A stretch of DNA of 45,000 nucleotides, taken from contig JACDAB010000103.1 in assembly GCA_013695665.1 (NCBI GenBank), positions 1 to 45,000 of the forward strand, read 5' to 3'. The first letter of the stretch is position 1. Every line of letters starts with the position of its first letter. This document shows, one piece after another, positions 1,536 through 22,488 of this stretch. The notes beneath the pieces were generated by a model, which was given only the letters and a program-made list of their open reading frames with translations, made no database searches and had not been told where the DNA came from. The DNA comes from Geodermatophilaceae bacterium. GTDB taxonomy: Bacteria > Actinomycetota > Actinomycetes > Mycobacteriales > Geodermatophilaceae. Both the position numbers and the translations under genes were made by a program.

Positions 1536-2310
1536 ACGCGCCGCTGCACCTACCGAGGCGAACCGGTGGCACGTCGCCACGTTGGCAGGCCCGGAGCGGG
1601 CGAAAGACCGGCGCCGCGACCCGCGAGATGGGCCGCGCCCAGAGCGGACAGATCACGTCGCGAGTCGCCAGACCGGCCGGCCAGGTCGCCACGAGGTCGT
1701 CGTTCGCGCTGGCCCCACCGTCGGCGACAGGCGAGCGACAGGCCCCGCGGCGTGCTCGGTCGCCGTCACCACGTCGTCCACCTGGTGCGCGATCGACTCG
1801 AGGACCGCGCACCTCGAGCCGGGTCGGGACGATCGAGATGAACTCCGGGTCCAGGAGCGCGAAGGCCCCGGCGAAGGACAACGTCGTACCGGCCAGCGTG
1901 TCGAGGTCCAGTGGGGCGACGACGTGGTTCTTGGCGAGGTCATTGAGCCCCTGCCGTGGGCCGGCTCCTCCGCGGTTGTACGGGTCAACTGTTGAGCCGG
2001 CGGCGTCAGGCGAGGCAGGGGGAGGGGCTGGCGCAGGCGGCCGACCCGCTGACCGCAGACGAGCGGGTTCGGGTTGAATGGGCCAGGGCCGAGGACTTCA
2101 CCTGCCTGCGGCCCCCCAGGAGGATCACCCTGTAAACCGGCGCCACGGACTCCGGATGCCTTGGTACGGGGTCGGTCTGGCTCCAGATCGCCTACCTGCA
2201 GTACCGCAGCCGGTGGCCTTGCGCGTCACCCCGGCGGTCGTGGGCATTAGGGTCCTGGCACAGCCCGGTCTCGCACGGCAGTAAGAGCTGGATCGATGGA
2301 GGCGCCCGCC

Positions 2311-7803
<5,493 letters not shown>

Positions 7804-9815: not shown

Positions 9816-10724
9816 TCAGGAAGCCTCGGACAGCGCCTTGGCGATGATGGTGGTCTCGTCATCGAGCGATGCCGGCTGGTGGTAGCCGTCTTCGATCAGC
9901 CGATCGATCTCGGTCAGGTGTTCGCGGAAGGACTCCGCGCTGATGTGCGGGAGCACGACGCCCCGCGTCTCGGCCACGAAGATCCGGGCCACCCGACCGC
10001 CGGCCACGGAGTAGACGTGACCGTTGACCGCACAGTCCTGGTGGGCGAGGTAGGCCACGATGGGGCTTACCGACTCCGGTGAGACGCGAGGCGCGAGCGG
10101 GCCGAGAAGGTCCTCGGTCATCCGGGTCAAGGCTATCGGCGCGATCGCATTGACCTTGATGCCGTGCCCGGCGCCCTCCAGGGCCAGGACACGCGTGAGG
10201 CCCGCCAGCCCGGCCTTCGCCGCGCCGTAGTTGGCTTGACCGAAGTTGCCGAACAGCCCCGACGCGGAACTGGTGTTGATGATCCGGCCGTAACCCTGCT
10301 CGCGCATCAGCCGGAACGCCGGCTGGCTGACGTAGCAGGCACCTTTGAGGTGAACGTCTATCACGGTGTCGATCATGGTCGCGTCCATCTTGTGGAATGC
10401 CTTGTCCCGCAGGATGCCGGCGTTGTTGATGAGGATGTCGACCTGGCCGAATGCCTCCACCGCGGCCTGCACGATGGCCGCTCCCCCTTCCGGGGTGGCT
10501 ACGCTGTCGTCGTTGGCGGCCGCCTCACCGCCGAGGGCACTGATCTCGGCCACGACCCGCCGGGCCGCCGAGGACGATCCCCCGCTGCCGTCGACCAGCC
10601 CGCCCAGGTCGTTGACCAGGATGGCGGCGCCGCGGCGCGCCAACTCCAGTGCATGGGCACGCCCCAGACCGCCGCCCGCGCCGGTGATGATGGCGACGCG
10701 TCCGTCGAAACGCAGTTCAGGCAT
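9816..10724 (-). CDS. SDR-family (3R)-hydroxyacyl-CoA dehydrogenase-like oxidoreductase
   Basis: TGAGGGLGRAHA, NDLGG, NNAGILRD, YGAAKAG; resembles the MFE-2 dehydrogenase domain. Confidence 0.88.
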   Translation of the reverse strand: MPELRFDGRVAIITGAGGGLGRAHALELARRGAAILVNDLGGLVDGSGGSSSAARRVVAEISALGGEAAANDDSVATPEGGAAIVQAAVEAFGQVDILINNAGILRDKAFHKMDATMIDTVIDVHLKGACYVSQPAFRLMREQGYGRIINTSSASGLFGNFGQANYGAAKAGLAGLTRVLALEGAGHGIKVNAIAPIALTRMTEDLLGPLAPRVSPESVSPIVAYLAHQDCAVNGHVYSVAGGRVARIFVAETRGVVLPHISAESFREHLTEIDRLIEDGYHQPASLDDETTIIAKALSEAS

Positions 10725-10821: not shown

Positions 10822-11577
10822 TCAAACCTTGACGAGCGGCGGCTCCGAACGGAGTCTGGCGGCCAGAAACGGCTCCATCGCGCCGACCAACGAACCGGCC
10901 GGGCCGGCTCGTTGCAGATCGTGGCCCGCCGGCAACGTGACCAGCCGAGCGCCGGGGATGCGTTGGGCCAACACCGTGCTGTTCGCCGGAGGCACCACCC
11001 GGTCGCGGATCCCATGGACAACCAGCGTCGGCGTCCTAATGGCACCGAGGAACGGAATGCTGGACCAGCTAGAGATGGCGAGGAACTGCCACAGTGTCCC
11101 GACGGCGTCCGGCCGGGGCCAGGCACGGGCACCGGAGGGCGGCAGCAGGCTCCGCAACGCGTCCTGGGAGCCCGGGCTCGCCCCTATGCCGCAGGACGTG
11201 GACGCGAGGACCAGCCGGCGAACCCGGGTCGGGGCGTCCACCGCGAGCTGCTGCGCGACGGCACCACCGTGGGAGAAGCCGAGCACGTCTGCCGTGTCCA
11301 CACCCGTCTCGTCGAGCACGCCGGTCGCAAGCCGGGCCATCTGGGGTATCGACAGGGGCAGCACCGGGGTGGGGCTCCTCCCGACGCCGGGCGCGTCGAA
11401 GCTGATGATGGTGCGTCCGCGCAGTTCCCGGGCGACCGGCTCCCAGCTCTCCAGGGGTCTGGTCAACCCGTTGAGCAACAGCAGCGCAGGCCCGTCTCCC
11501 TGCACTCGGATGCGGACCCTGTGCCCTCGGATACAGACCACCTCGGCGTCGGACGCCCGCGGTAGCGCGTGCTTCAC
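10822..11577 (-). CDS. phaZ: Alpha/beta hydrolase, PhaZ-like intracellular PHA depolymerase
   Basis: VKHALPRASDAEVVCIRGHRVRIRVQGDGPALLLLNGLTRPLESWEPVARELRGRTIISFDAPGVGRSPTP...GFSHGGAVAQQ...GHDLQ; GTG start overlaps the phaC stop (GTGA). Track ORF 10822..12534 extends upstream through phaC and is over-long. Confidence 0.75.
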   Translation of the reverse strand: MKHALPRASDAEVVCIRGHRVRIRVQGDGPALLLLNGLTRPLESWEPVARELRGRTIISFDAPGVGRSPTPVLPLSIPQMARLATGVLDETGVDTADVLGFSHGGAVAQQLAVDAPTRVRRLVLASTSCGIGASPGSQDALRSLLPPSGARAWPRPDAVGTLWQFLAISSWSSIPFLGAIRTPTLVVHGIRDRVVPPANSTVLAQRIPGARLVTLPAGHDLQRAGPAGSLVGAMEPFLAARLRSEPPLVKV

Positions 11578-13295
11578 GCCCGGGTACGTACGTAGCTGCC
11601 CGGAGCGGGCTCGACCACGGGATGGTCCTTGCTGCCGAGCTGCCGGGGGGCGGCCACCTTCGCACCGCCCTGCTTGGCGATCCACGTGGTCCAGTCGTCC
11701 CACCAGGTGCCTTCGTGCAGCTGCGCAGCGTCCTTCCACTCCTTCGGATCTGCCGGGAGGTCGTCGTTGGTCCAGTGCTTTGCCTTCGGGCCGGGTGGGT
11801 TGACGATTCCGGCAATGTGCCCGGACGTGCTCAAGACGTATCGGCTGTTGCCGCCGAACAGCTGCGTGGTCTTGTACCCCGACACCCACGGGACGATGTG
11901 GTCGTCGACCGCGGACAGCACGTAGGTATCGATGTCGATCTTTCCCGGCTCGAGCTTCTGCCCGCCCATCTCGAACTCCCCCCGGGCGAACTCGTTGTTG
12001 AGATAGCACGACCGTAAGTACTGCGAATGCATCTTGGCCGGCATCCGGGTGCTGTCCTTGTTCCACACCAGCAGGTCGAAGGCTGGTGGCTGCTTGCCGA
12101 GCAGCCAGTTGTTCACGACGTATCCGAAGATCAGGTCGTTGGCCCGCAACGCGTCGAACGTGTGCGCCATCTTGTCCGAATCGAGATAACCCTTCTTGGC
12201 CATCTGCTTCTCTAGTCCGGCGATCGTGGCCTCGTCGGTGAAGACCCCGAGAGTGCCTGAAGCGGCGAAATCGGTATGGGTGTTCAGGAACGTGGCGGAC
12301 TTGATCGACCGATCGCCGATCCCCGCGTTGTGCGCCAGACCGATAGCCGTCAGCGTCCCCCCGAGACAGACCGACAAGACGTTGACCTCCGCGGCGCCGG
12401 TGATCTCCCGCACCACCCGGACCGCATCCAACGGGCCCTGGCGCAGGTAGTCCTCGAAGCCCAGGTCGCGCATGGATGCATCGGGGTTGCGGTAGCTGAT
12501 CGCGAAGCAGGTGTGACCGTGCTGGACGGCCCATTCGATCAGGCTCTTACCCGGCGCCAGATCCATGATGTAGTACTTGTTGATCCACGGCGGGCAGAAC
12601 AACAGCGGCACGGCGTGCACGCGCGGCACCTGCGGCTCGTACTGGATGACTTCGATCAGGTCGCTCCGATAGACGACCGCACCGGGAGTGGCGGCCATGT
12701 TGACGCCGACTTCGAACCCGGAGGAGTCGACCTGCGAAGGCCACCCGCCGTTGTGGCGGATGTCGCCCAGCATGTTCCGGACGCCCCGCAGCACGCTCTT
12801 GCCGCCGGTGTTGAACGCCTCGCGCAGCGCCGCGGGATTGCCGGGCAACGTGTTCGTAGGTGCCAAGGCGTCAAGGATGAACGACGCGGCAAACCGTGCC
12901 TTCACGTCCTGGGCGGCGTCCAGCCCAGCCGCGTCGAGCAGTTCCGTGACCAGCTGAGCGGCCAACAGGTACTGCTGCTCGAGCAGGAAGTACATCGGGT
13001 TCTCGGCGTAGGCCTGGTCCCGGAAACGCTTGTCGCCCTTGTCCGGAGACACCGGGCCGTCGGTGTCCCGGCCGACCGCGCGCCCAGCCGTCGCGCGTAC
13101 CGCCGCCGCAAGGCCAATCAACAGCCGGGCATTCGCGGCCGCGGCCGCGGTCGGGTTCCTCGCCAGCGCGGCGCCCGCTGCGGCGAGTGAGCGCAGGAAC
13201 GACACGGGGTCGGCACCGACCAGCGGGTCCTCGGCGACACCCAGGCGGTCCAGGACTGACCGGGTCGCTGACTCAGGGCTGTGTGCTGGCTTCAT
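11574..13295 (-). CDS. phaC: Poly(3-hydroxyalkanoate) synthase, class I-like
   Basis: Lipase-like box SVCLGGT, PPWINKYYIMDL, GGSRYVLSTSGHIAGIVNPP-like segment (GGNSRYVLSTSGHIAGIVNPPG). Confidence 0.95.
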   Translation of the reverse strand: MKPAHSPESATRSVLDRLGVAEDPLVGADPVSFLRSLAAAGAALARNPTAAAAANARLLIGLAAAVRATAGRAVGRDTDGPVSPDKGDKRFRDQAYAENPMYFLLEQQYLLAAQLVTELLDAAGLDAAQDVKARFAASFILDALAPTNTLPGNPAALREAFNTGGKSVLRGVRNMLGDIRHNGGWPSQVDSSGFEVGVNMAATPGAVVYRSDLIEVIQYEPQVPRVHAVPLLFCPPWINKYYIMDLAPGKSLIEWAVQHGHTCFAISYRNPDASMRDLGFEDYLRQGPLDAVRVVREITGAAEVNVLSVCLGGTLTAIGLAHNAGIGDRSIKSATFLNTHTDFAASGTLGVFTDEATIAGLEKQMAKKGYLDSDKMAHTFDALRANDLIFGYVVNNWLLGKQPPAFDLLVWNKDSTRMPAKMHSQYLRSCYLNNEFARGEFEMGGQKLEPGKIDIDTYVLSAVDDHIVPWVSGYKTTQLFGGNSRYVLSTSGHIAGIVNPPGPKAKHWTNDDLPADPKEWKDAAQLHEGTWWDDWTTWIAKQGGAKVAAPRQLGSKDHPVVEPAPGSYVRTRA

Positions 13296-13351: not shown

Positions 13352-13717
13352 CTACGACTCTGCCGGGGTGTCCCCAACATAGCTGCGGTACACGACGAGC
13401 AATGCCTGGCGTTGAGCTTCGCTGAGCCGCGGGTCGGCCCGGATCGCGGACTCCGTCGCCTTGTCGTCCGGCGCCTCGGCGTCGTCGACCAGGCCGGCCT
13501 GCTGGAACAGCGTCTCCGCCGACACGTTGAGCGCGTCTGCGATCGCCTTGAGCACGCGGACGGACGGCTCGTGCAGTCCGCGCTCGATCTGGCTCAGGTA
13601 GGGGTTGGAGACCTCAGCCAGCGCGGACAATTGGCGCAACGAAAGTTTCGCCATCTGCCGCTGCGTGCGGATAAAGGCGCCCAGCACGTGCGGCGGGTCG
13701 TTTGCTTCAGCAGCCAT
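13352..13717 (-). CDS. XRE-family HTH regulator in the PHA locus
   Basis: LGAFIRTQRQMAKLSLRQLSALAEVSNPYLSQIERGLHEPSVRVLKAIADALNVS; directly upstream of phaC. Confidence 0.9.
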   Translation of the reverse strand: MAAEANDPPHVLGAFIRTQRQMAKLSLRQLSALAEVSNPYLSQIERGLHEPSVRVLKAIADALNVSAETLFQQAGLVDDAEAPDDKATESAIRADPRLSEAQRQALLVVYRSYVGDTPAES

Positions 13718-13801: not shown

Positions 13802-14641
13802 CTACATGTCCATACCGCCATTGACGCCCCAGACCTGGCCGGTGATGTACGCCGATGCATCGGCTGCCAGGAAATGGACGACCCGGGCGATTTCCTCGGG
13901 TCGGCACAACCGGCCCACCGGAATCTGCGATCGGATCTTGTCCAGTACCTTTTCCGGGACACTCTCCAGCATCTCGGTCGCCACGAAGCCCGGTGTCACC
14001 GTGTTCACCGTGATACCGACGCCGTCGTCGGTGAGTTTGCCCGCCCGCGCAAGGATGAAGGCAGCCTCTTTCGCGAGCGTCTTGGTCAGTCCGAGGATGC
14101 CGGCCTTGGAGGCGGCGTAGTTGGCCTGGCCGATGTTTCCGGTCTCCCCGATGACCGAGGAGACGAAGATAATGCGGCCGGTCCCCCGTTCAACCATGTG
14201 CTGCAGCGCCGGCTGAGCCATGTAGAACGAGCCCGACAGGTTCACCGCGAGAACGGTGTTCCAGTCCTGTACCGACATCTTCATAGCCATCTTGTCGATG
14301 GTGATCCCGGCGTTGTTGACCAGGATGTCGAGCCGGCCATGCGCGTCGAGAACCTCCTGGACCACCCGCTGACAGTCCTCGGGGCGGGAGACGTTGCCCT
14401 GATGGACAGTGGCGCGACCTCCGCTCGACGAGTCCTCCTCGAATTCCCTGAGGAACTGCTCGGCGCGTTCCCGGTTGCCGCTGTAGCCGGCGGCTACCGA
14501 TGCACCTTGGCTGGCCAGGCTCCGGCAGATCGCGGCGCCGATGCCACGGCTTCCGCCGGTCACCAGCGCGACCCGCCCCGCGAGCTTGTCACCGGCCATG
14601 CCTCGCGTTCGTTCCTCGGACTGCTCGTCCATGGCGTTCAT
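13802..14641 (-). CDS. phaB: SDR-family acetoacetyl-CoA reductase (PhaB/FabG-like)
   Basis: TGGSRGIGAAIC, NNAGITIDKMAMKM, YAASKAG, ITGQVWGVNGGMDM; position in PHA locus. A start at 14599 (MAGDKLAG) is also possible. Confidence 0.8.
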   Translation of the reverse strand: MNAMDEQSEERTRGMAGDKLAGRVALVTGGSRGIGAAICRSLASQGASVAAGYSGNRERAEQFLREFEEDSSSGGRATVHQGNVSRPEDCQRVVQEVLDAHGRLDILVNNAGITIDKMAMKMSVQDWNTVLAVNLSGSFYMAQPALQHMVERGTGRIIFVSSVIGETGNIGQANYAASKAGILGLTKTLAKEAAFILARAGKLTDDGVGITVNTVTPGFVATEMLESVPEKVLDKIRSQIPVGRLCRPEEIARVVHFLAADASAYITGQVWGVNGGMDM

Positions 14642-14787: not shown

Positions 14788-14818
14788 TAGACATTTCTAG
14801 CACGTCACGTAGTATGTC
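14788..14818 (+). promoter_or_regulatory. Candidate promoter/operator region for the phasin gene
   Basis: TAGACA -35-like element with 17-18 nt spacing to GTATGT/AGTATG; also GACAT...ATGTC dyad at 14790-14818. Confidence 0.3.
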
Positions 14819-14855
14819 AATCACAGCTACCACCGATGAGCAGAGGAGACTGCAC

Positions 14856-15332
14856 ATGATTGTTCAGGACCGATACACCAGCACCGTCCGACAGGCCCAG
14901 GAGACCTGGTCCGGGCTCTTGGAGTCCGTGCTCGACAACCAGCAGAAGGCCTTCGGACACTCTGTCAGCCCGTTCGGGCTCGTCAACCCCAGCGCGGCGA
15001 TCGACCAGGTCTTCGACCTCTGGACCAAGACGCTCGAGGTTCAGCGCGAGGCGGCCAAGACGCTGGTCGGCGTCACCGTAACGGTCGGCGAGACGCTCCG
15101 CACCCAGGCTCAGTCGGTCGGCGAGATGGTGCGCGAGCAGACCGAGTCTGCCAATCGCGTCGCCCGGGAGCAGGTGGACGCGGTCAAGCAGGCCGCCGAG
15201 GAGCAGGCCGTCAGGAAGTACGCGGACCTGACGAAGGCGGAACTGCAGGACGCGCTCGACCGCCGCGACCTGCCCAAGACCGGCAACGTCGACGAGCTCC
15301 GCGCCCGACTGATCGAGGACGACCAGAAGTAG
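14856..15332 (+). CDS. Phasin-like PHA granule protein with C-terminal SAP-like motif
   Basis: MIVQDRYTSTVRQAQETWSGLLESV...helical phasin-like core, then KYADLTKAELQDALDRRDLPKTGNVDELRARLIEDDQK (SAP pattern). GAGGAG 7 nt upstream of ATG 14856; in frame within track ORF 14541..15332. Confidence 0.75.
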   Translation: MIVQDRYTSTVRQAQETWSGLLESVLDNQQKAFGHSVSPFGLVNPSAAIDQVFDLWTKTLEVQREAAKTLVGVTVTVGETLRTQAQSVGEMVREQTESANRVAREQVDAVKQAAEEQAVRKYADLTKAELQDALDRRDLPKTGNVDELRARLIEDDQK

Positions 15333-16288: not shown

Positions 16289-19111
16289 GTGCGGTGGCAA
16301 CTGGCGGGCGGAAAACGCGACAGCATTGGTCAGACGCTGACCGGGAGCCGGTCGGAGAACCACGACTCCGGCGTACCCGCTGCGCCGGCTGGCCCCACTT
16401 CCGGCGGTACGCCGATCGCAGCCGACGTCGAGGCGCTGCGGTCTGCCGGCTCCCACCCGATCCTGCGCTGCTTCCCCGAGGGCGCCATCATCGTGTTCGA
16501 CCACGACTTGCGCTACCTCAGTGCAGGAGGGCTGGGCCTGGCCGACGTTGGCCTGTCCCGGGAGATGCTCGAGGGCCACACGATCTTCGAGGTGTTCCCG
16601 CCCGAGGTCGTCGATGCCATCGAGCCGTTGTACCGGCTGGCGCTGGCCGGCCAGGAGTCCACGCTGGACGTGCCCTACCAGGACCGCATCTATTCAATGC
16701 GGCTCGGCCCACTGCGCGACACCGACGGCGCGATCATCGCCGGCATGGGGTTCACCCAGGACGTGACATCGGCCCGCCGGTCCGAGCGGGCGATGCGGGA
16801 GTCCGAAGACCGTTTCCGTTCGGCCTTCGACAACGCCCCGATCGGTATGGCGCTGATCGCCCTCGACGGTCGCTTCGAACAGGTCAACCAAGCCCTCTGC
16901 GAGCTCACCGGGTACGGCGACCGGCAGCTCCGGGAGCTCGCCATCACCGACATCACCCACCCCGATGACCTCGCCGAAGATCTGGCGGGCAGGACCCAGC
17001 TGCTCGCCGGCCGGGAGAGCACCTACCGGTTGGAGAAGCGCTACCTGACGGCCACGGGTGGGGTCGTCTGGGCAGCCAAGTCGGTGTCCCTCGTCTGCGG
17101 GGACGATGGTGCACCCCGCCACTTCATCGCCCAGATCCAGGACATCAGCGAGCGCAAGAAGCACGAGCAGGTCCTGTCCGCGGAACGGCGCCGGCTGCGT
17201 GACGCCCAGGCCATCGGTCATGTCGGATCGTGGGAGATGGACGTCACGGCCGGCACCGTCGAGTGGTCGGACACCCTGTTCGACCTGTACGGCCTCGACC
17301 CGGCGACGTTCGCTGGTGACTACGGGTCCGCGCTGGACTGCATCCACCCTGAGGATCGCGCCAAGGTCGACGCTGCGTCCATCAGGTGCCGGGACGGCGG
17401 TGAGCCGCTGTATGTGCGCTACCGCGTGACCCGAGCGGACAACGGTCAGCTGCGGTGGTTCGACGCCCGCGGCGAGGCCTGGTACGAGGGCGGGCAGCTC
17501 GTCCGCCTCACCGGAGCCGTCGCCGACGTGACCGACCAGGTCCTGGCCGAGGTTGCCGTGGCAGAGGCCAGAGACGCTGCGTTGGAGGCATCGCGGCACA
17601 AGTCGGCGTTCCTCGCGACAATGAGCCACGAGATCAGGACACCCATGAACGCCGTGATCGGCCTGACCGGGCTGCTGCTCGACAGCGACCTGGACCCGCA
17701 ACAACGAGATCTCGTGGAGACGGTCCGCGACAGCGGAGACGCCCTACTCGTCATCATCAGCGACATCCTCGACTTCTCCAAGATCGAGTCGGGGCAGCTG
17801 GAGCTGGAACAGCAGGCCTTCGACCTGTGGGAGTGCGTGGAAGGCTGCCTCGACCTCCTGGGTCCCTCGGCCACCGCGAAAGGGCTGGACCTGGTCGGCT
17901 ACGTCGGCGACAGCCCGCGCTGGGTGATCGGCGACGCGTCCCGACTGCGCCAGGTGCTGGTCAACCTGCTGAGCAACGCCATCAAGTTCACCAGGCGGGG
18001 GGACGTGCTGCTGGAAGTCACCCCGCAGGAATCGACCGCCACCGGAGTCCGCCTCCACATCGCCGTCACGGACACTGGGATCGGCATCCCCGCCGACAGG
18101 CTGCACCGGCTGTTCAAGTCCTTCAGCCAGGTCGACGCTTCCACGACCAGGGTGTACGGCGGGACGGGCTTGGGCCTGGCCATCAGCCACCGGCTGGTCG
18201 AAGCAATGGGAGGCGAGCTGGCGGTGACCAGCGCGGTGGACACCGGCTCGGTGTTCTCCTTCTCCCTGCTGGCGGGCCGCTGCGACGAGGTCCCGCCGGC
18301 AGGCAGCGAGCCGGCAGTCGACCTGCAGGGCAGGACGGCGCTCATCGTCGAGGACAACGCCACGAACCTGCGCACCCTGCGCCGCCAACTCGAGGACTGG
18401 GGCATGCGGTGCGCGAGCACCGATACCCCCGACGTTGCACTCGCGCTCGTCGCCGCCGGCGCCCGCTATGACGTCGCCCTCATCGACATGATCATGCCGG
18501 CCATGGACGGGCAGCAACTCGCGAGCGATCTGCACGAGCTGCCGGCCGGGGCGCGGTTGCCGATCGTCCTGCTCGCCAGCATGGGCCGGCCTGTCGAGCG
18601 CCCTGCGACCAGCGGCGTCGCCGCGACCCTGACCAAGCCGGTGAAGGCGACCGCCCTGCAGTCAGCGCTCATGACCGCGCTCTCCGGACCCGTGCTGGAG
18701 GTGCTGCCGGCACCCGTCCGGTCCCTCGCTGAACCCCTCCAGGCTCAGCGGCTCCGGATCCTGCTGGCCGAGGACAACGTGGTCAACCAGAAAGTCGGGC
18801 AGCTGATGCTCGACAAGTTGGGGCACCACGTCGACACGGTGGGCAACGGCTGGGAGGCGCTGCAGGCGGTGCTCCACCTGCCCTACGACGTGGTGCTGAT
18901 GGATGTGCAGATGCCGGAGATGGACGGCCTGGAGGCCACCCGCCGCATCCGCTCGGATCTCCCGATGCGACGCCAGCCTCGGATCGTGGCGATGACTGCC
19001 AGCGCTCTCGTCGAGGACCGGACGGCCTGCCGGGAGGCCGGCATGGACGACTACCTGGCCAAGCCGGTACGCGCCGCCGACCTCGCCGCCGTGCTCAACC
19101 ACCCCGCCTGA
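16289..19111 (+). CDS. Hybrid sensor histidine kinase (PAS repeats - HisKA - HATPase - REC - REC)
   Basis: PAS/PAC segments, MSHEIRTPMNAVIGL, GGTGLGLAISHRLVEAMGG, IVEDNATN...IDMIMPAMDG and LAEDNVVNQ...MDVQMPEMDG. Confidence 0.93.
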   Translation: MRWQLAGGKRDSIGQTLTGSRSENHDSGVPAAPAGPTSGGTPIAADVEALRSAGSHPILRCFPEGAIIVFDHDLRYLSAGGLGLADVGLSREMLEGHTIFEVFPPEVVDAIEPLYRLALAGQESTLDVPYQDRIYSMRLGPLRDTDGAIIAGMGFTQDVTSARRSERAMRESEDRFRSAFDNAPIGMALIALDGRFEQVNQALCELTGYGDRQLRELAITDITHPDDLAEDLAGRTQLLAGRESTYRLEKRYLTATGGVVWAAKSVSLVCGDDGAPRHFIAQIQDISERKKHEQVLSAERRRLRDAQAIGHVGSWEMDVTAGTVEWSDTLFDLYGLDPATFAGDYGSALDCIHPEDRAKVDAASIRCRDGGEPLYVRYRVTRADNGQLRWFDARGEAWYEGGQLVRLTGAVADVTDQVLAEVAVAEARDAALEASRHKSAFLATMSHEIRTPMNAVIGLTGLLLDSDLDPQQRDLVETVRDSGDALLVIISDILDFSKIESGQLELEQQAFDLWECVEGCLDLLGPSATAKGLDLVGYVGDSPRWVIGDASRLRQVLVNLLSNAIKFTRRGDVLLEVTPQESTATGVRLHIAVTDTGIGIPADRLHRLFKSFSQVDASTTRVYGGTGLGLAISHRLVEAMGGELAVTSAVDTGSVFSFSLLAGRCDEVPPAGSEPAVDLQGRTALIVEDNATNLRTLRRQLEDWGMRCASTDTPDVALALVAAGARYDVALIDMIMPAMDGQQLASDLHELPAGARLPIVLLASMGRPVERPATSGVAATLTKPVKATALQSALMTALSGPVLEVLPAPVRSLAEPLQAQRLRILLAEDNVVNQKVGQLMLDKLGHHVDTVGNGWEALQAVLHLPYDVVLMDVQMPEMDGLEATRRIRSDLPMRRQPRIVAMTASALVEDRTACREAGMDDYLAKPVRAADLAAVLNHPA

Positions 19112-19153: not shown

Positions 19154-20752
19154 CTACCCGGCCAGCCGGCGTACGGCGGTCGCCAGGCGGGTGAGAACCG
19201 CCAGCTCTGCCCGGAGCGGGACAAGGATCAGCTCCTCGGCAACCGCCCCGACCCGACGCGTCAGCTCCCGACCGGCGCGCCGGCGGCGCCGGGCCGCACC
19301 GGCGGCGATGAACGGCCGCGCCAGCACCCTGAGTGCAAGCCCGCCCACCAGACCACCGAACAGAAGCACCGTCGGCCAGGCGAACCCGCCCAGCGACGGC
19401 GGTTCCAGGTCGATCTGCACATACGCCAGCACGGCCAGCAGGCCGAGCCATACCAGCCCGACGACGGCCACGCCCAGCAGCACCCACTGCAGTGCACCGA
19501 CCGCCCGCCACCATCGCGGCGGCACCTGCATGCCGAGGTCGGCACCGCCGACTGCGCGATCCAATGCGTCGGGGACCTCCTCGACCCGGCGGCGGGCGGC
19601 ACCGCGCAGCAGCCCGGGCCAGGGTTCTGGCAACTGCGCCGAGGCGATGTCGGCAACCTGGCGTACGGCGGTGTCCACGCCGGCCCGGGAGATCGCCGAA
19701 CCGGCCGGGAGTGACGTGCGCCCCAGCACCTGATCGGCAGATCCCGCACCCGGCGAGCGGCCGATGCCGAGGCGCCGAAGCGGGTCGGGTCGCAGCTTCG
19801 ACAGCCACCGCAGCGGCGGCCAACCCACAGCGGCGACACCTCGACGCTGATGCGCCCGGGTGACCGCGTCCAGCACGGCCGGTACGCCGGCTGCACGCTC
19901 CAGCGCCGAGCGCAGCCGCGACGCCTCCGCCCGGAGATCAGGTTCCGAGCGCTGCACCGGGGCCAGGGGCACGATCCGAGCGGCCAGGTCGGTCAGGTCG
20001 GCCGATATCCGGTCTGTCCGGGCCCGGTGCTCGGCGACGGTCGCTGCCAGGAACGCCCGCAACGGGTCGGCGCCCCCGGGACGCAGCGCCGACGTGGCCA
20101 GGACGGGCACCCCACTGAGGCCGTCCTCGGACAGCAGCCGACCAAGGTCACTCACGCACGCCGCCACCGCGTCGGGTGTCAGCAGGTCGGCCTGATTGAG
20201 CACCACGACCATCACCTCGCGGTGTGCGGCGAGCGGGCGGAGGTAGCGGTCGTGCACCGCGGCGTCGGCGTACTTCTGCGGGTCGAGGACCCAGACGAAG
20301 GCATCGACGAGCCGGATCATCCGGTCCACCTCAACCCGGTGCGAGGCCTCGGTGGAATCGTGGTCGGGCAGGTCGAGCAGGACCAGGCCGGCCAGATCGG
20401 GCAGGTGGTGCGCCTCGCCGTGCTGGCGCTGCCCGACCTCGAGCCAGTCCAGCAAGCCCGCCGCCCCGTCTGCACCGATGACGCACGCCTGGGTGGTGCT
20501 GGTGGTCGGTCGTCGTACGCCGACAGCGGCCAGCGGCGCACCAGCGATGGTGTTGAACAGCGAGGACTTGCCGCTACCGGTAGCGCCGGCCAGGGCGACG
20601 ACGGTGTGCTCACCGGACAGCCGCAGCCGTGTCCCGGCCCGGTCCGACACGCGTCGAGCGTCCTCGATCAACTCCCCCGGTAGCCGGCCGCTACCGAGGT
20701 CGATCACCGCACCGAGGGCGTCCAGGCGCCCGGTCAGGTCCCCAGCGCTCAC
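19154..20752 (-). CDS. Dynamin-like/YfjP-type GTPase, membrane-associated
   Basis: P-loop GATGSGKSSLFN, DLPDHDS (G3), NQADLLT (G4-like), two TM helices (WVLLGVAVVGLVWLGLLAVLAYV; WPTVLLFGGLVGGLALRV). Confidence 0.85.
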   Translation of the reverse strand: MSAGDLTGRLDALGAVIDLGSGRLPGELIEDARRVSDRAGTRLRLSGEHTVVALAGATGSGKSSLFNTIAGAPLAAVGVRRPTTSTTQACVIGADGAAGLLDWLEVGQRQHGEAHHLPDLAGLVLLDLPDHDSTEASHRVEVDRMIRLVDAFVWVLDPQKYADAAVHDRYLRPLAAHREVMVVVLNQADLLTPDAVAACVSDLGRLLSEDGLSGVPVLATSALRPGGADPLRAFLAATVAEHRARTDRISADLTDLAARIVPLAPVQRSEPDLRAEASRLRSALERAAGVPAVLDAVTRAHQRRGVAAVGWPPLRWLSKLRPDPLRRLGIGRSPGAGSADQVLGRTSLPAGSAISRAGVDTAVRQVADIASAQLPEPWPGLLRGAARRRVEEVPDALDRAVGGADLGMQVPPRWWRAVGALQWVLLGVAVVGLVWLGLLAVLAYVQIDLEPPSLGGFAWPTVLLFGGLVGGLALRVLARPFIAAGAARRRRRAGRELTRRVGAVAEELILVPLRAELAVLTRLATAVRRLAG

Positions 20753-22488
20753 CGATGCGCCGCCACGGCCGAGGCCACCCGCTCGACCGCGGCCCGCAAC
20801 TGCCCGCCCTCGACGGGACCGACCCCCGCCCCGAGCACGTCCGCATAGCGGGCGGCGTCGCGAGCCAGCAGCGCTTCGACCTGGCTCAGTAGCTCCTCGC
20901 GAGCCTGCCGGGCCAGCCCGCGCACTGCCTGCTCCCCGAACATCGCCTCGAGCACCTTCTGGCTGGCCACGCTGGTCCCACCGGCTACGGCGAACTCGGC
21001 GCCGGTGACCCCGCCGGTCTGGGCGAAGACCGCGAGCATGACCACCAGCCCCGCGCCGTTCACGCCGTACGACGCGATCCGGGCACCCGATCGCTTGGAT
21101 GCGCCCTCGGTCCGCACCAGCTCCAGCACGTAGCCCTGCCAGTCACGCACCAGCGTCTCGACGCGCTCACCCAACCCGGCAGCCGGTCTGGCCAGTTCGT
21201 CGACGAGCAGTGGGGCACCGCCCGGATGCCGCGCCCAGCAGGCGTAGGCGGATTCGGCGGCATCCTCGGTGGCGGCACGGACGACCGTCACCAGGCCGGA
21301 CTCCAAGGCCTCCTCCAGCTCATCGATCGGCCCGCCGCGCCCGGTGACGGCCGCGGTGATGCGGTCGCGCAGCCGCCCGATCCTGCTCTCCAGCCGCCGC
21401 AGCAGCTCACCGGTTCCCACCACGTCCTGCCAGCGGGCCAGCACCTCACCCCGCAGCAGGGCACCGTCTCGAATGGCCTCATCCACCCGCCCCAGCGCCG
21501 TGCCGTAGGACGCGCTCACACAGGACTCCAGCTGCCCTCGAACTGCCTGCTGCTCGTCGGCGGCTGCGGCCAGGGCCTGCGTACGCGGCGCCAGGCTGGC
21601 CAGCGCACCGTCGAGGGTGTGCCGCACGACGGCCGCCCGAGCCCCGGCGTCCGCGGTCAGCCCGGTCAGCCAGGTGCGGATCGGGGCGATCGCCGGCTCG
21701 CCGAGGCGACCGTCGACGAGGGGCACCTCGGGTACGACGAACAGCGGCGCACCACCGAGCCCGCGGGCGGTGAGCATCGCCGCCAGGTGCCCCCCGACGT
21801 CGTTCATGGCTGCGGGCGGGCAGCGGTCCAGCACGACCGCGATCGCGGTCCCGCGCTCACGGGCTGTGTGCAACAGCTGCCACGGGACGGCGTCGGCGTA
21901 CCGCGCCGCCGTGGTCAGGAACACCCACAGGTCCGCCGCGGCGAGCAGCGTGCCGGCCAGCTCGCGGTTGGCGCTGACCACCGAGTCGATGTCCGGTGCA
22001 TCCAGCAGCGCCAGCCCCGGACCGACTCCTGGGTGCAGCACTATCCGCAACCCGCCGAGGTCACCCGGACCGCTGGTGCGGGGAAGCCCAGGCAGGATCC
22101 TTCCGTCGGTGAACCAGCCGGCATCGGCCGGGTGGCAGATGCACACCGGGCCCCTCGTGGTGGGGCGGAGCACCCCTGCCGCACTCACGTCGGCACCGAT
22201 CAGTGAGTTGATCAGCGTCGACTTCCCCGCGCCGGTCGACCCACCGACCACAGCCAGCAGGGGCGCATCGAGGCGCCGCAGCCGCGGCAGGAGGTAGTCC
22301 TCGAGCTGTCCGAGGAGTTCGCGCCGGTCTCGCTCGGCGGCCCAGGCAGACGCCGAAGCCAGCGGAAACGCCGCATGCCGGGTCAGTTCGAGGAGATCGG
22401 AGACCGCCTCGAGCAATACCTGCGCTGGTGACTGCACGGGCACAGCCTGCCTTATGCGGCAGACGGCTTCCCGGCCCCTGGACGCCAC
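20749..22488 (-). CDS. Dynamin-family GTPase (upstream partner)
   Basis: P-loop GGSTGAGKSTLINSLIG, RPTTRGPV, LLDAPDID; ATGA overlap with the downstream GTPase gene. Confidence 0.85.
   Translation of the reverse strand: MASRGREAVCRIRQAVPVQSPAQVLLEAVSDLLELTRHAAFPLASASAWAAERDRRELLGQLEDYLLPRLRRLDAPLLAVVGGSTGAGKSTLINSLIGADVSAAGVLRPTTRGPVCICHPADAGWFTDGRILPGLPRTSGPGDLGGLRIVLHPGVGPGLALLDAPDIDSVVSANRELAGTLLAAADLWVFLTTAARYADAVPWQLLHTARERGTAIAVVLDRCPPAAMNDVGGHLAAMLTARGLGGAPLFVVPEVPLVDGRLGEPAIAPIRTWLTGLTADAGARAAVVRHTLDGALASLAPRTQALAAAADEQQAVRGQLESCVSASYGTALGRVDEAIRDGALLRGEVLARWQDVVGTGELLRRLESRIGRLRDRITAAVTGRGGPIDELEEALESGLVTVVRAATEDAAESAYACWARHPGGAPLLVDELARPAAGLGERVETLVRDWQGYVLELVRTEGASKRSGARIASYGVNGAGLVVMLAVFAQTGGVTGAEFAVAGGTSVASQKVLEAMFGEQAVRGLARQAREELLSQVEALLARDAARYADVLGAGVGPVEGGQLRAAVERVASAVAAHR

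Follow-up and report, generated by a model that had tools for sequence, protein, structure and literature searches.

What does a small protein that ends in a SAP domain do beside the genes of PHA metabolism? The window analysed here, a stretch of 45,000 nucleotides from a Geodermatophilaceae bacterium, carries an open reading frame that a preliminary description had read as a phasin-like granule protein with a DNA-binding SAP tail, encoded divergently from phaB in a PHA locus. The gene, its coordinates and its orientation were confirmed in this analysis (Table 1), and the C-terminus quoted in that description matches the translation exactly. As the best explanation for this gene we propose, with moderate confidence, that its product is a phasin with a SAP tail that serves as an adaptor between PHA granules and the chromosome.

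Table 1. Features of the phasin-SAP gene, its product and the flanking PHA locus, in window coordinates.
Feature	Position	Strand	Basis and remarks
Phasin-SAP gene	14856..15332	+	ATG start, 158 aa, stop 15330-15332
Ribosome-binding site AGAGGAGA	14842..14849	+	Sequence
Phasin-SAP promoter, sigma-70-like, TAGACA-N16-TAGTAT	14788..14815	+	Promoter scan
Helix 1, predicted, amphipathic, residues 2-32	14859..14951	+	AF2, low confidence (pLDDT about 50-60); amphipathicity
Helix 2, predicted, residues 45-76, family motif (A/V)IDQxFDxxxKxLEvQR	14988..15083	+	AF2; amphipathicity; alignment
Helix 3, predicted, residues 85-120, apolipoprotein/perilipin-like amphipathic, 11-residue repeats	15108..15215	+	AF2; amphipathicity
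SAP domain, residues 122-156, helix-extended-helix	15219..15323	+	Pfam; AF2; Foldseek
phaB-like acetoacetyl-CoA / 3-oxoacyl reductase (SDR)	13802..14641	-	TIGR01829, 281 bits, below the cut-off of 302
XRE/Cro-type regulator	13352..13717	-	HTH_3, 53.7 bits; synteny
Class I PHA synthase PhaC	11574..13295	-	PF07167, 193.5 bits; TIGR01838, 597.7 bits, slightly under the cut-off of 622.65
Alpha/beta hydrolase, PHA depolymerase-like	10822..11565	-	Best NCBIfam match TIGR02240, 110 bits, below the cut-off of 250.6
SDR oxidoreductase, edge of the locus; adjoins the locus in L001 too	9816..10724	-	Synteny, profile search

Moving outward from the phasin-SAP gene, the minus strand encodes in order the phaB-like reductase, with which the gene is divergently oriented, the XRE/Cro-type protein, PhaC, the depolymerase-like hydrolase and a further SDR, and this set of neighbours identifies the locus as a PHA module. 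The XRE/Cro-type protein is likely to be the regulator of the locus; its orthologs are found close to phasin genes in three other loci (L002, L003 and L069). The promoter-like site upstream of the phasin-SAP gene, for which shuffled sequences gave a mean of 0.0 in the promoter scan, lies in a region (14788-14835) that is conserved in four orthologs with the pattern TTGACAT/TAGACAT ... TAGTAT/TACTAT ... TCAA(T/C)C, where L001, L002 and L003 have TTGACAT and the window has TAGACAT. This region is a possible target of the XRE regulator. In the source genome (2.41 Mb, 74% complete) the phasin-SAP protein provides both the sole phasin core of its family and the sole SAP domain detected, and no SAP phasin adjoins the second phaC of that genome (contig C77, L124). 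Downstream of the phasin gene the window further encodes a large hybrid histidine kinase with a PAS domain (16289-19111), and it also contains two adjacent minus-strand genes (19154-20752 and 20749-22488) that by eye resemble P-loop GTPases and share 4 bases at their ends.

The assignment of the first 120 residues as a phasin core stood in part. The PHA context and the amphipathic character both bear it out: the predicted core helices are amphipathic in comparison with shuffled sequences (p 0.01-0.03), and the protein agrees with the functional description of a phasin as a small amphipathic helical protein encoded beside PHA genes. Furthermore, an 11-residue repeat runs through residues 81-120 and through longer relatives (moment at 98.2 degrees, p=0.0018), with a lag-11 self-identity of 0.31 in helix 3. 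Such 11-residue repeats are found in apolipoprotein- and perilipin-like surface helices. Membership of a known phasin family was not borne out, as the profiles PF05597, PF09361 and TIGR01837 scored 16.3, 16.4 and 17.0 bits, none of them reaching its curated cut-off. Phasin_2 weakly matched 5 of 14 family members, and the AlphaFold2 confidence for the core was low overall. The weaker statement, that the core appears phasin-like by context and character and not by family membership, is the one we adopt.

The SAP tail was established more firmly. The helix-extended-helix pattern noted earlier passed a PF02037 search over residues 122-156 (E 1.1e-5, 25.4 bits against the Pfam gathering cut-off of 23.9), and the tail alone scored 29.9 bits. 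A family SAP profile, built with the window sequence left out, scored the window protein at 74.3 bits, against 5.0 for the runner-up among 606 window ORFs; of 5,000 shuffles of the protein, the highest-scoring reached 9.1. Using an alignment of 14 relatives as input, AlphaFold2 predicted a helix at 127-136, an extended loop and a helix at 145-157 with a pLDDT of about 94, the SAP fold that had been anticipated. Foldseek searches of the PDB placed the Tho1 SAP domains at the top (rmsd 0.7-1.5 A, 43% identity), followed by 3'hExo, DEK, Hcc-1 and others, with Ku70 lower; the leading matches were nearly all SAP domains, and their E-values were weak (0.33 upward) because the match spans just about 36 residues. 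The sequence alignment to Tho1 is likewise ungapped over 36 residues, at about 43% identity, and a tail profile that included gas-vesicle SAPs (see below) matched the SAP domains of MKL1 (5e-10) and Tho1 (6e-8). WD40 proteins among the PDB sequence matches were rejected as repeat artefacts, no stretch of which passes alone. In a viral structure library the matches were mostly SAP-domain proteins, several of them from actinobacteriophages and all at E about 0.1 or more; the best of them, at 42% identity and an rmsd of 0.4 A, is labelled 'DNA binding protein' and comes from an Arthrobacter phage. A phage source for the SAP domain is possible; searches of plasmid and phage records returned no relative of the full protein.

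Whether this SAP domain binds DNA is a more delicate matter. The proposal that it replaces the basic tail of other granule proteins is supported by its conservation and by the tail-swap paralogs described below, but is qualified by its charge and its loop. The yeast Tho1 SAP (PDB 1h1j, 4uzw) shares the helix-extended-helix fold with the window tail and has a net charge of +1 and the loop lysine, whereas the window SAP has a net charge of -4 (-4 to -5 in three orthologs), within a protein of pI 4.9, and V145 at the lysine position. The canonical loop G-x-K, which is common but not universal, is therefore replaced here by G143-N-V145, and the phasin SAPs share the signature LPK(S/T)G(N/T)V, in which valine stands for the loop lysine. 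Four residues before V145, at K141, the phasin SAPs have lysine or arginine, and a six-sequence alignment shows no variation at K127, R137, K141 or R151. For the most part, SAP domains bind weakly and with low specificity. Mutation of the loop glycine, leucine or lysine reduces DNA binding in RAD18, and the SDE2 SAP has leucine at the loop lysine position and still binds DNA, preferring single strands and helped by an extra lysine tail (PMC9399289). The isolated SAP of SAFB2 binds weakly, in the micromolar range (PMC9958909), and that of Tho1 binds DNA and not dsRNA (PMC4909252). Weak binding by a single SAP could be offset if a granule carried many copies.

The pairing of phasin core and SAP recurs in relatives, which suggests, short of proof, a tie between PHA granules and the chromosome. 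The phaC, XRE, phaB and phasin-SAP genes are all kept together in L001 (Geodermatophilaceae) and L002 (Sporichthyaceae), while L003 (Nocardioidaceae) encodes three phasin cores together with a linked XRE gene, with no phaC within the 11 kb examined. The SAP tail is present in all three and is the best conserved of all regions of the protein, at 82, 89 and 76% identity respectively; in the N-terminal helix identity is down to 42-77%, and in helix 3 to 48-77%. Also, the SAP showed a smaller dN than the core in each of the three comparisons, which are rough, being pairwise over 38 codons. Another genus of the same order (that of G080) has several paralogs with long Ala/Lys/Glu-rich linkers and one or three SAPs. 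Among 17 genomes of this genus, SAP phasins occur in all four with PhaC_N and in two of the 13 without (Fisher p=0.006, uncorrected for kinship). L064 (8215-9474) encodes a phasin-like protein that combines a long linker rich in Ala, Glu and Arg with three SAP domains in tandem.

The core family has a sparse and scattered distribution across the class: it was found in five of 395 genomes, four of which have PhaC_N, a domain present in 28 of the 395. Most PhaC genomes must therefore use other coat proteins, and the other phaC neighbourhoods of the class that were inspected (L109-L128) contain no such phasin. SAP-tailed amphipathic proteins, apolipoprotein-like at sub-threshold scores, are encoded at L140 (9018-9809) and L066 (8779-9732) in two genomes without detected PhaC_N, so the core may serve another inclusion too. 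The minus strand of L070 (about 1976-3036) encodes an XRE regulator that shares about 52% identity with that of the window and, after it, a helical protein with a Rho_N/SAP-like domain at its end (34.2 bits for Rho_N, 24.2 bits for SAP). L145, for which Pfam gave no match, was left out of the set of firm SAP proteins. The SAP search of the phylum additionally returned several longer matches, in frames of 500-870 aa (L028-L054).

The strongest comparative argument for the SAP as the DNA-binding part comes from paralogs. L058, which represents the L002 locus again, and L003 each encode a neighbouring paralogous core (4502-4861 and 299-724, respectively) that carries a Lys/Arg-rich tail in place of the SAP, with a net charge of +8 over the last 30 residues. 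Since paralogous cores carry either a SAP or a histone-like tail, side by side, the two tails look interchangeable. This suggests a shared function in DNA binding, although each tail could bind something else, and two family members (L061, L147) have neither a SAP nor a basic tail.

Taken together, we infer a protein with granule binding, multivalent DNA binding and a role in segregation. The amphipathic helices of the N-terminal 120 residues, including the 11-residue repeats, would sit on the surface of the PHA granule, and the C-terminal SAP would bind DNA non-specifically. A granule coated with many copies would then be held on the nucleoid, spaced from others and shared among daughter cells. 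The most serious competitor, which we nevertheless consider rather unlikely, is that the SAP fold is no DNA binder and instead contacts a protein partner, which might be PhaC, the XRE regulator or a second granule protein. PhaM, after all, activates PhaC; the net acidic tail and the valine at the loop lysine position of the phasin SAPs fit such a contact, and the strong conservation of the tail would suit any interface. The exchange of SAP for basic, histone-like tails in neighbouring paralogs is harder to accommodate, as are the four invariant basic residues and the nearest folds, most of which are nucleic-acid- or chromatin-binding SAPs. Nor does the missing lysine preclude DNA binding, given the hydrophobic residue at this position in the SDE2 SAP, which binds DNA with its additional lysine tail (PMC9399289).

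Two further readings keep nucleic acid as the ligand and differ from a granule-to-chromosome adaptor in what is bound. The protein might act mainly as an autoregulator or nucleoid-associated regulator, its SAP on operator or promoter DNA and its phasin part sensing free granule surface. PhaF does have a part in the control of phaC1 expression (PMC5658603), and the promoter region is conserved in the four orthologs, but the locus already encodes an XRE regulator, each core has a single short SAP, and SAPs mostly bind weakly and with low specificity (PMC9958909), so that we regard this role as improbable. Less probable still is a tail with RNA or ssDNA as its ligand, which would bring non-chromosomal nucleic acid to the granule. 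The preference of SDE2 for ssDNA (PMC9399289) and the RNA-pathway proteins Tho1, SF3B2 and 3'hExo among the fold and profile matches would agree with it; against it, the SAP of Tho1, the nearest solved relative, binds DNA and not dsRNA (PMC4909252), and a bacterial precedent was not found.

A wider use of the domain is hinted at by gas-vesicle proteins from other lineages of Actinomycetota. The phylum-wide SAP search revealed SAP fusions in three gas-vesicle clusters (L055:12183-15257, L056:10043-13537 and L057:8520-9134), where the domain is found on the N-terminus of GvpO and the C-terminus of a GvpA-like protein, and where long proteins carry two to three SAPs, with single-domain scores of up to 48 bits. 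The SAPs of L055 and L056 retain the loop lysine. More genomes, all of one order, have SAP domains beside gas-vesicle genes (L148-L163), and our literature search found no paper on SAP-fused gas-vesicle proteins. The presence of SAPs on both phasins and gas-vesicle proteins suggests a common use on inclusions. We offer only as a tentative idea, one that we would not ourselves favor, that the SAP of Actinomycetota is a reusable tether fastening inclusions such as PHA granules and gas vesicles to the chromosome, sometimes through several proteins per cluster; these multiple SAP proteins could equally make assembly contacts. If the gas-vesicle fusions act alike, chromosome tethering of inclusions would be wider than thought.

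The positioning and partition of granules in actinobacteria have been little studied. If our proposal is true, the SAP would represent one more independent means of tethering, after the histone-like tails of PhaF, PhaM and AlgP, the helix-hairpin-helix of PhaH and the PAKKA motifs of MLDS. The natural swapped-tail paralogs permit a direct test of tethering, and the SAP tail might be usable as a compact tag for control of the number and position of bioplastic granules. In the literature searched, from which most subscription journals fall outside, no paper links a phasin or polyhydroxy-granule with a SAP domain; the best account of the protein's novelty is that its layout is known, from PhaF, PhaM, PhaH and MLDS, and that a SAP on a phasin is unreported there.

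That layout, a granule-binding N-terminus and a C-terminus on DNA, is common to PhaF of Pseudomonas putida and PhaM of Ralstonia eutropha/Cupriavidus necator (PMC13052382, PMC5658603) and extends to PhaH, with non-specific DNA binding in all three (PMC13052382). The histone-like tails that were cited at the outset as tying PhaF and PhaM granules to the nucleoid are consistent with that account. These tails are basic, whereas the window tail is a folded, acidic SAP of 36 residues, a putative DNA binder, on a core just distantly phasin-like. Two closer precedents are absent from the preliminary description. PhaH of Caulobacter crescentus is a PHB granule protein that likewise ends in a folded, non-histone DNA-binding module, a helix-hairpin-helix (PMC13052382), and differs from the window protein in fold and phylum. 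MLDS of Rhodococcus jostii, an actinobacterial inclusion protein with N-terminal droplet targeting and C-terminal DNA binding, ties lipid droplets to DNA via the PAKKA motifs of a lysine-rich tail, with no SAP described (PMC5504291), where the window protein would tie predicted PHA granules through a SAP. GA14 of Rhodococcus ruber, which likewise comes from an actinobacterium and is close to the window protein in size, coats PHA granules (PMC5658603); it has no described DNA-binding domain and differs further in binding granules by C-terminal hydrophobic patches.
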